In this document: positions 34,123 to 41,636 of the stretch, piece after piece
Layout: each line of letters begins with the position of its first letter
Numbering within the stretch: position 1 is the first letter of the stretch
Source of the DNA: Alphaproteobacteria bacterium HGW-Alphaproteobacteria-18
GTDB taxonomy: Bacteria; Pseudomonadota; Alphaproteobacteria; Caulobacterales; Hyphomonadaceae
Direction of reading: 5' to 3'
DNA: 64,000 bases
Assembly (NCBI GenBank): GCA_002841155.1
Contig: PHEH01000002.1
Coordinates: forward strand, 248,001 to 312,000
The notes under the pieces: model-generated
The model's input: only the letters and a program-made list of their open reading frames with translations
Told to the model about the DNA's origin: nothing
Database searches by the model: none
Position numbers and translations under genes: made by a program

Positions 34123-35025
34123 ATGCCCGATACGTCGCCGATCCTAACGATTCATGAAGGACCCCCCATCGAGCTTCAAGAGCTCGGCGATCCTTATCAT
34201 CTGACCTCGCCGGAAACGGGTGAAGCACCGATTGTTTTTGCCAGCCCGCATTCCGGCAGTCTCTATCCGGAAACCATGGTTTCGGCGCTATGCGTACCTC
34301 TGATGGATGTTCGCCGGACAGAGGACGCCTTCGTAGACGAGCTTTTTGCCAATGCCCCCCGTCATGGAGCATCCCTGCTCACAGCCCGCTATGGACGGTC
34401 GGTGGTTGACCTTAATCGCGACCCCCACGAACTCGACCCCACCATGTTTCATGATGGCCCTCCCCGCGCGTGCGCCCTCCCCACGCCGCGGGTTGAGGCA
34501 GGTCTTGGCTGCCTGCCCAAGGTCGGCGCCAGAGGAGAGCCTATTTATGGTCGCCTGTTATCAAAGGCCGAAGGGGAGCAGCGCCTCGCCGGTGTTCATG
34601 ATGTCTATCACGGCTGCCTGTCGGGTCTGCTGGAGGCCCAGCGCGCGCGGCATGGCAGGGCATTGCTGATTGATTGCCACTCTATGCCATCGGTCCAGCC
34701 CGGCCGGCGCAATCTCACGGATATCGTCCTGGGAGACCGTTTCGGATCAAGCAGTAACCCCCGCCTGGTCAACTGCCTGGAGCGGGTCTTCCGCAATCAC
34801 GGCCTCACCGTGGCACGCAATGCGCCCTATGCCGGTGGCTACACAACCCGGCGCTATGGCCGGCCCAAGCGCGGCATTCATGCCATCCAGATCGAAATCA
34901 ATCGCGGCCTGTACATGGATGAGCAGGCAATCACGCGGGCGGGCGGCTTTGCGCGCCTTCGCCCTGTCATGGACGCGGCCATCATAGAGATGATCGACGC
35001 GATCGGGCAGCTCTCAGAGCGATAG
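34123..35025 (+). CDS. N-formylglutamate amidohydrolase family protein
   Basis: A 300-residue zinc-amidohydrolase-like protein. Family features are FASPHSGSLYPETM (zinc-binding His) near residue 38, the RRTEDAFVDELFANAPRHGA segment, LLTARYGRSVVDLNRDPHEL, LLIDCHSMPS and a final HAIQIEINRGLYMDE. Characterised members release formate from N-formylglutamate in histidine breakdown (HutG type). No other hut gene is nearby, so the true substrate is uncertain. It is divergent from cpdR. Confidence 0.88.
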   Translation: MPDTSPILTIHEGPPIELQELGDPYHLTSPETGEAPIVFASPHSGSLYPETMVSALCVPLMDVRRTEDAFVDELFANAPRHGASLLTARYGRSVVDLNRDPHELDPTMFHDGPPRACALPTPRVEAGLGCLPKVGARGEPIYGRLLSKAEGEQRLAGVHDVYHGCLSGLLEAQRARHGRALLIDCHSMPSVQPGRRNLTDIVLGDRFGSSSNPRLVNCLERVFRNHGLTVARNAPYAGGYTTRRYGRPKRGIHAIQIEINRGLYMDEQAITRAGGFARLRPVMDAAIIEMIDAIGQLSER

Positions 35026-35043
35026 CAACTCCCTGACTTTAAA

Positions 35044-35119
35044 GAAAAAAGGCCGCGCCAATAGGCGCGGCCAAAGTCAAAGGGAGGAAACGCCAGAGGC
35101 GTCTGCACCGAAGTGCAAG
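35044..35119 (-). ncRNA. MmgR/suhB-type (alpha-r8) small RNA
   Basis: On the minus strand, a roughly 76-nt transcript is predicted. It has hairpin 1 at 35117-35104 (TGCAC stem with a TTCG tetraloop), hairpin 2 at 35102-35090 (ACGCC/GGCGT), the single-stranded motif TTTCCTCCCT at 35090-35081, and a 9-bp GC terminator (35072-35051) followed by a T-run. These are the features I associate with the Rfam suhB motif and its S. meliloti member MmgR (about 77 nt). A promoter is well placed upstream, and a SuhB-family gene lies about 0.7 kb away. No ORF occupies this strand. Confidence 0.85.
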
Positions 35120-35124
35120 ATCAG

Positions 35125-35152
35125 ATTATGTTGCGATGCACAAAGGGCCAAG
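35125..35152 (-). promoter_or_regulatory. Promoter of the MmgR-like sRNA
   Basis: On the minus strand a -35 CTTGGC (35152-35147), 16-bp spacer and -10 CATAAT (35130-35125) match the alphaproteobacterial housekeeping consensus CTTGAC/CTATAT. A start 6-7 nt later (about 35119) gives a transcript the size of known MmgR. Confidence 0.65.
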
Positions 35153-35299: not shown

Positions 35300-35698
35300 A
35301 TGGCTGACGAAACTGACCTGCACGTTGGCAAGCGCCTGCGCCGCCGCCGCCGCCTGCTTGGCATGACACAGCAGGATCTGGCGTCCCAGGTGGGCGTACG
35401 CTTCCAGCAAATTCAGAAATACGAGTGCGGCGCAAACCGTATCACGGCCTCGCGCCTTTACGATTTGGCCCGGGCAATGAATGTGTCGGTCCAGTATTTC
35501 TACGATGGCATGGTTGTGCCTGGCACAGTGCCAAATGCGGCCAATGACGCCGAACAGATGGAAGGCGACATCCTCTCCCAGAAAGAAACTCTGGAACTGG
35601 TGCGCGCCTATTACCGCCTGAGCGAACGCCCCCGCCGCCGCCTGCTTGAGCTTGCAAAAGCCCTTGAGCAGGACACCTCCAGCACCGGCGCGGCTTGA
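35300..35698 (+). CDS. XRE-family HTH transcriptional regulator
   Basis: A 132-residue regulator. An arginine-rich start (GKRLRRRRRLLGMTQQDLAS) leads into a Cro/C1-type helix-turn-helix (about residues 10-65) with VGVRFQQIQKYECGANRITA as recognition region. A short C-terminal helical part follows. This form is widespread and conserved in alphaproteobacteria, often single-copy, and unrelated to phage repressors. A GGAGAGGG ribosome site sets the start at 35300. It shares its upstream region with the oppositely transcribed sRNA. Confidence 0.9.
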   Translation: MADETDLHVGKRLRRRRRLLGMTQQDLASQVGVRFQQIQKYECGANRITASRLYDLARAMNVSVQYFYDGMVVPGTVPNAANDAEQMEGDILSQKETLELVRAYYRLSERPRRRLLELAKALEQDTSSTGAA

Positions 35699-41533: not shown

Positions 41534-41586
41534 AAGTTCCATCCCGTTTGAGTGTCTGGGGCGTTTCACCCTCTTTGAAAGCAATT

Positions 41587-41609
41587 GGCCCCGGCTTTCT
41601 GCCGGGGCC
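41587..41609. repeat. Perfect GC hairpin between TonB receptor and phosphatase
   Basis: A 9-bp perfect stem (GGCCCCGGC, 41587-41595, with 41601-41609) and 5-nt loop sits in the 103-bp spacer between two same-strand genes. There is no T-run on the minus strand, so it may attenuate or stabilise mRNA rather than terminate. Confidence 0.6.
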
Positions 41610-41636
41610 TTTCACGATAATCAAGCGTGCCGTTCC

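Follow-up and report, generated by a model that had tools for sequence, protein, structure and literature searches.

What is encoded between a gene for N-formylglutamate amidohydrolase (FGase) and a gene for an XRE-type regulator in the 64,000-nucleotide stretch of DNA analysed here (the window), what controls it and which mRNAs might it act upon? A preliminary description made from the letters alone had proposed a small RNA of the MmgR/suhB family, and the window RNA is indeed a known kind of small RNA at its known site. Family and site being known already, the interest lies in a testable link from PhaR to TonB-dependent receptors, and in relatives of the RNA located in 3′ untranslated regions. 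Our best explanation, which we hold with moderate confidence, is that the locus encodes a trans-acting RNA of the alpha-r8 type (MmgR/SisA, RF00519) with an anti-Shine-Dalgarno seed, which would be repressed by PhaR and would lower nutrient receptors and catabolic genes when polymer is plentiful.

A small RNA gene of the MmgR/suhB family

The covariance search proposed in the preliminary description was carried out as a scan of the window against all 4227 Rfam families, and RF00519 (suhB/MmgR, alpha-r8) matched the minus strand at 35107-35036 over the full model length (1-77), with 53.0 bits against a gathering score of 41 bits and an E value of 4.5e-8. Membership in this family is settled, as had been claimed. 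The window copy is also the top RF00519 match of its genome (E 6.4e-10), two weaker matches of 35.2 and 30.4 bits lying elsewhere, and the family is found above cut-off in 55 of 61 genomes.

The gene occupies 35041..35119 on the minus strand, with a predicted transcript start at about 35119-35117 and an end at about 35045-35041, which gives a predicted RNA of about 75-78 nt, close to the 76 nt proposed earlier. Its own promoter and Rho-independent terminator are present as predicted sequence features on the same strand. The -35 element reads TTGGCC (35146..35151; relatives have TTGCTC or similar there) and is separated by 17 nt from the -10 element, TAATCT (35123..35128). Stem-loop 1 (TGCAC-TTCG-GTGCA, 35104..35117) lies mostly outside the RF00519 match, which starts inside this hairpin, while stem-loop 2 (ACGCC-TCT-GGCGT, 35090..35102), recognized from the RF00519 match and RNAfold, is a weak hairpin preceding the seed. 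The seed UUUCCUCCCU, an anti-Shine-Dalgarno motif read as TTTCCTCCCT, is placed at 35081..35090 by sequence and RNAfold, and the terminator (35045..35072) consists of the stem GGCCGCGCC-TATT-GGCGCGGCC at 35072-35051 followed by six T residues at 35050-35045. RNAfold predicts three stems, that is, the two hairpins and the terminator, at -36.6 kcal/mol, and leaves the seed unpaired save for its first two bases, which lengthen hairpin 2. Strand, promoter, seed, terminator and the two small hairpins, one with a TTCG loop, had thus been read correctly, and the single-strandedness attributed to the motif holds for all but these two bases.

A model that combines the seed with the terminator (R2), with a structure set by hand and trained only on FGase-linked copies, was used to scan the 61 genomes; it matches 35094-35045 with 72.6 bits, the window copy being part of the training set. 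All 53 FGase-linked copies contain TTTCCTCCC. A 5′ hairpin can likewise be folded in all 53 when the best one within 30 nt is taken, a choice that favours detection; it occurs as 24 distinct sequences, one of which is common to 25 copies. Hairpin 1 covaries, since its five inner positions each show three to five types of base pair across these copies, and compared with shuffled sequences its region has a mean z of -1.76, with 25 of the 53 copies below -1.5. In four loci of family f3 (L007, L013, L038 and L050), the final U of the 10-mer is replaced by A.

Genomic setting

The genome that holds the window comprises 3.88 Mb in 48 contigs and is that of a Hyphomonas; the nearest named relatives of its FGase protein are from Hyphomonas, including H. 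polymorpha (81-86% identity). The FGase gene (34123..35025, plus strand; PF05013, E 8.8e-71) is convergent with the sRNA and is the usual neighbour of the family, and the XRE-type HTH regulator gene (35300..35698, plus strand; PF01381, E 3e-13) is divergent from it. An FGase-adjoining copy was found in 53 of the 61 genomes compared, 36 of these 53 belonging to the genus of the window. A set of 80 named loci was reduced by the 26 closest ones, from Hyphomonas and its close relatives; of the other 54, exact TTTCCTCCC lies beside FGase in 42, one of which (L297) looks spurious, and 12 are without the exact seed by FGase. Beyond the genus it is the FGase gene that persists as the neighbour (compare PMC12559287).

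All 36 loci of the genus have genes for the XRE regulator and an inositol monophosphatase no further than 1.5 kb from the sRNA copy, and such constancy could be taken to mean that the RNA is a cis element of the adjoining inositol-monophosphatase (suhB/hisN-like) or XRE gene. We consider this extremely improbable, as the sRNA is encoded on the other strand and has a promoter and a terminator to itself, and outside the genus either gene is present within 1.5 kb in only one of 17 FGase-linked copies (L018). The name suhB itself derives from an adjoining gene, and the discoverers of the motif judged it most likely not to be a cis element of suhB and favoured a separate RNA on the opposite strand (PMC1273637). 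A cis element of suhB/hisN was therefore rejected on grounds of strand, synteny and literature. Since the family only took its name from a neighbour of this sort, for which a cis role was thought improbable, the nearby inositol-monophosphatase gene is no functional clue, and the weight given earlier to hisN as a SuhB-superfamily neighbour falls away.

A PhaR-type palindrome in the promoter

Between the -35 and -10 elements lies a putative PhaR/AniA operator, TTTGTGCATCGCAACATAA (35126..35144, minus strand), with the core TGCATCGCA at 35140-35132. In Sinorhizobium meliloti, the PhaR (AniA) motif has been described as a core YGCRNYGCR with AT-rich arms, and it is present in the promoter of mmgR (PMC12542648), a gene that PhaR represses (PMC12542648, PMC8401924); an EMSA with the mmgR promoter is listed in a figure legend (PMC12542648), and a review mentions a conserved dyad between the -35 and -10 elements of mmgR (PMC8401924). 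TGCATCGCA fits the published core, and the outermost 5′ flank base of the published motif misfits.

The core is present in 47 of 53 FGase-linked copies, with a rate of 1.1% in mononucleotide shuffles. When 41 named loci (L297 left out) are joined to these 53 copies from the 61 genomes, a set in which the same species may recur, 85 of the 94 have the core between -105 and -30 relative to the seed. Seven control windows gave 12, 12, 6, 8, 3, 9 and 21 cores per 94. The exact core is missing in 9 of the 94 linked copies. With regard to the six coreless copies among the 53, five belong to family f3 and have identical half-sites that are spaced by two bases instead of one; these PhaR-like two-base-spacer sites (L007, L013, L038, L050 and L055) account for five of the six f3 copies, and L005 has neither the core nor the two-base-spaced form.

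A single PhaR match was found in the genome (PF07879, 111.6 bits), on the contig that carries the sRNA and some 36 kb further along. A search with PF09361 returned a single Phasin_2 match, and the region upstream of this phasin gene carries TTTTGTGCGCTGCAACATTAA, nearly the same palindrome as in the sRNA promoter. Genome-wide there are 43 sites for TTGTGCNNNGCA versus 17 for the reversed motif, and the motif core is present in 17 of the 43, two of which overlap. Of ten proteins encoded beside core sites and picked by hand, six are a thiolase, an acyl-CoA thioesterase, an AMP-binding enzyme, an acyl-CoA dehydrogenase, the phasin and a member of the zinc-type alcohol dehydrogenase family; the other four are an HlyD-type protein, a TetR regulator, a GNAT acetyltransferase and a protein that matched no family. 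A motif core also occurs at L126 (G000:C30:70722-70733), some 16 nt ahead of the probable start codon of a receptor gene, which could be chance. At the sequence level we thus find both marks of a PhaR/AniA-regulated promoter, a promoter with the motif core and a genome that encodes PhaR, and we infer that the sRNA promoter is under the control of PhaR.

The RNA and PhaR also tend to occur together. Among 389 genomes of the class, 168 have both, 12 the RNA only, 82 PhaR only and 127 neither, corresponding to an odds ratio of 22 from raw counts in which kinship, descent and genome size are ignored. Here the RNA was counted as present at E<=1e-6, so that 51 genomes with weaker RNA matches were scored as without it; the genome lists behind the RNA and PhaR counts have totals of 231 and 250. 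We count the 82 genomes that have PhaR without a strong RNA match against our explanation. On a smaller scale, four of the five genomes of family f4 without an RF00519 match are also without PhaR (G043 has it), and the sole f4 genome with an RF00519 match has PhaR; in G054 the RNA is present and a PhaR match absent.

The window RNA resembles SisA of Caulobacter crescentus in its FGase-linked site, 10-mer seed and terminator. Unlike the window RNA, SisA is one of four copies (SisA-D), and it is described as nearly constitutive (PMC12559287), an observation that counts against control by PhaR, which predicts otherwise. The promoters of sisA-D are moreover said to have no common motif (PMC12559287). 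Accordingly, the RNA could be a constitutive housekeeping anti-Shine-Dalgarno RNA, with a palindrome that is no PhaR site or on which PhaR has little effect. We regard this as rather unlikely, since the palindrome core also lies upstream of the FGase-linked copies in Caulobacter loci and the palindrome resembles the site upstream of the phasin gene in the window's own genome. As the core is conserved upstream of both Hyphomonas and Caulobacter copies, it is a testable prediction that sisA answers to PhaR. PhaR is not mentioned in the body of the paper on SisA (PMC12559287), and no paper joining PhaR and SisA was found, by title and opening abstract, among the matches listed from published open-access papers. 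Two literatures would meet here, one in which PhaR controls MmgR in Sinorhizobium and another in which SisA controls TonB-dependent receptors in Caulobacter.

Candidate targets

In Caulobacter, SisA represses TonB-dependent receptors through pairing of the 10-mer with their 5′ UTRs, and pairing with a receptor 5′ UTR has been demonstrated by compensatory mutants (PMC12559287). The Shine-Dalgarno (SD) sequences of receptors here appear to fit the seed in the manner of SisA targets. Start codons were chosen in a way that is biased towards strong SDs. Of 51 receptor loci, 30 entered the test, and 14 of these have a complement to the seed of at least 7 nt in the start region, versus 3 of 49 other genes, which are uncurated, non-overlapping ORFs of the window with 150 codons or more; the reversed motif reached 7 nt in 2 of 30 receptors and 4 of 49 other genes. 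A rank test of receptors versus other genes gave p 3.5e-4, compared with p 0.04 for the reversed motif, and a paired test on receptors p 5e-4. SDs are on the whole stronger in receptor genes (mean score 5.3 vs 4.4), and when genes are compared at equal SD score the mean seed match of receptors versus others is 7.4 vs 5.2 nt at a score of 6, 5.4 vs 5.0 at 5 and 4.2 vs 4.5 at 4. The excess is clear at a score of 6 and not at 4 or 5, and is therefore confined to receptors with strong SDs. The contrast in duplex energy is weak (p 0.06 and 0.04), and one receptor locus (L214) was mis-stranded in that test.

Genome-wide, there are 60 sites for GGGAGGAAA versus 17 for the reversed motif, and 32 of these stand 1-12 nt ahead of the start codon of an ORF with 80 codons or more; when Pfam was run on 20 of these 32 proteins, five had TonB receptor plugs and many others were catabolic enzymes. 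The genome-wide excess itself was considered as proof of targeting and rejected, as it recurs in f4 genomes without an RF00519 match, with counts of GGGAGGAAA versus its reverse of 23/8 in G039, 36/6 in G043, 12/7 in G051, 18/5 in G055 and 11/6 in G059; it is for that reason better attributed to SD habit, and our case for receptors as targets is built on their contrast with other genes. In this family, model R2 finds a weak match in G039 (30.4 bits) and marginal ones in G043 and G059.

An alternative set of targets is suggested by MmgR of S. meliloti, which like the window RNA is about 77 nt long, has the same seed and carries a PhaR motif in its promoter (reported in PMC12542648 and PMC8401924), and whose reported phenotype concerns polyhydroxybutyrate (PHB) and phasins. 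The RNA could then be a storage regulator of the MmgR kind that pairs directly with the mRNA of the phasin or other polymer genes, receptors not being its main targets. That MmgR limits PHB and keeps PhaP1 and PhaP2 protein down (PMC8401924, PMC7143759) argues for this, as does the PhaR-type promoter here, and against shuffled seeds the phasin has a z of -1.0, near the receptors' mean of -0.84. On the other hand, the phasin start region offers a 5-nt run of seed complement only, with a duplex energy of -10.8 kcal/mol compared with a control mean of -14.2, receptors fit the seed better, and a 2020 review states that no direct target of MmgR was known (PMC7143759). We consider a main role in direct pairing with storage genes unlikely. 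The evidence for direct pairing with the phasin, itself drawn from the sequence, is mixed, as is the phasin fit in comparison with MmgR, and TonB-dependent receptors are the better-supported targets. A link to PHB storage, which the preliminary description mentioned for MmgR of S. meliloti, is plausible by way of PhaR control of the promoter; for direct repression of phasin the evidence is mixed.

Proposed mechanism

Under the preferred reading of a PhaR-repressed anti-Shine-Dalgarno RNA, PhaR would block transcription of the sRNA as long as storage polymer is scarce. Once polymer granules form, they would draw PhaR from the DNA and the sRNA would be made. Together with Hfq, its seed would then cover Shine-Dalgarno sequences of the GGGAGGAAA type on mRNAs of TonB-dependent receptors and catabolic genes, upon which translation would stop and carbon uptake would be tuned to stored carbon. 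The anatomy of the RNA, its family and site, the operator-like palindrome, the PhaR gene and the fit of receptor SDs are what the DNA itself provides; transcription, repression by PhaR and its relief by granules, the involvement of Hfq, pairing and repression of uptake are what we infer from them. Taken together, this suggests that stored carbon restrains further uptake.

Seed-bearing relatives elsewhere in Hyphomonas

Seeds and terminators of the same type are also found at other sites in the genus. From the R2 matches, 20 loci were fetched by choice rather than exhaustively, 12 with TTTCCTCCC and 8 without; of the 12, three follow etfA, three follow receptor genes and four are LysR-linked, while L236 follows a ChsH2-like gene and L247 is without a nearby gene end. 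The same seed, accompanied by a terminator, lies in the 3′ UTR of etfA in four Hyphomonas genomes, G002, G005, G015 and G028 (L231:1518-1570, L232, L233 and L074), and marks a candidate RNA there; the assignment to etfA (electron transfer flavoprotein alpha) rests on Pfam in G005 and on the same C-terminus in the other three. Seed-bearing terminators also follow TonB-dependent receptor genes in G000 (contig C25), G001, G002, G014, G015 and, from another family, G053 (L234, L237, L243, L090, L169/L003 and L082); the distance to the stop codon is 82 nt in L090 (G001) and 7-12 nt in the others. On G000 C25, the R2 match covers CCTCCC and the terminator, with exact TTTCCTCCC just upstream, and on G000 C3 a beta-barrel outer-membrane gene is followed by a seed 16 nt past its stop codon and a terminator 30 nt further on.

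A further group, class B, is found after a gene of the GDPD family in six genomes of the genus (6 of 6 by Pfam), two of which (G016 and G034) are above the RF00519 cut-off. An example is L139:2288-2365 (G000:C30:74287-74364), with an RF00519 score of 35.2 bits, just past the GDPD stop codon. The gene preceding the GDPD gene ends alike in all six and encodes a TonB-dependent receptor in G000; this is the receptor gene of L126, mentioned above for its PhaR motif core.

In the genome as a whole, a terminator lies within 75 nt of TTTCCTCCC at 5 of 60 sites on the seed strand, one being the window copy, versus 2 of 60 on the other strand, and such pairs are weak proof of further RNAs. In 12 loci scanned, which include the 3′-UTR relatives and the LysR-linked RNA, no Rfam family reached its gathering score. 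Within the window, 41560-41612 (plus strand) gives a weak R2 match of 21.3 bits with GGCGTTTCACCCTCTTTG, a hairpin and a short T run, which is probably due to chance.

We tentatively extend the proposal, with considerable doubt, to Caulobacterales and their kin, where PhaR might throttle outer-membrane uptake through the FGase-linked alpha-r8 RNA, the network being widened in Hyphomonas by 3′-UTR RNAs that have this seed and are borne by receptor transcripts or follow the GDPD gene. If true, full stores would lead to more RNA and fewer TonB-dependent receptors, and one receptor mRNA would release a 3′-end RNA that holds down other receptors.

A second candidate anti-Shine-Dalgarno RNA was observed in six Hyphomonas genomes, with (C/A)TTCCTCC in a hairpin loop, a second TTTCCTCCC and a terminator (L170:1372-1586 on G000 C25, with TTTCCTCCC at 305366, as well as L238, L239, L240, L241 and L249). 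No Rfam family reached gathering score in the four of these loci that were scanned. AbcR1 and AbcR2 (alpha-r15) are like the window RNA in having CU-rich anti-SD motifs and partial homology to suhB, and unlike it in having two such motifs and lsrB as a neighbour (review PMC7143759). It is this layout that the second RNA has, and a LysR gene directly upstream on the same strand in four of four loci checked (L170, L238, L240 and L249) recalls the position of AbcR1/AbcR2 beside lsrB.
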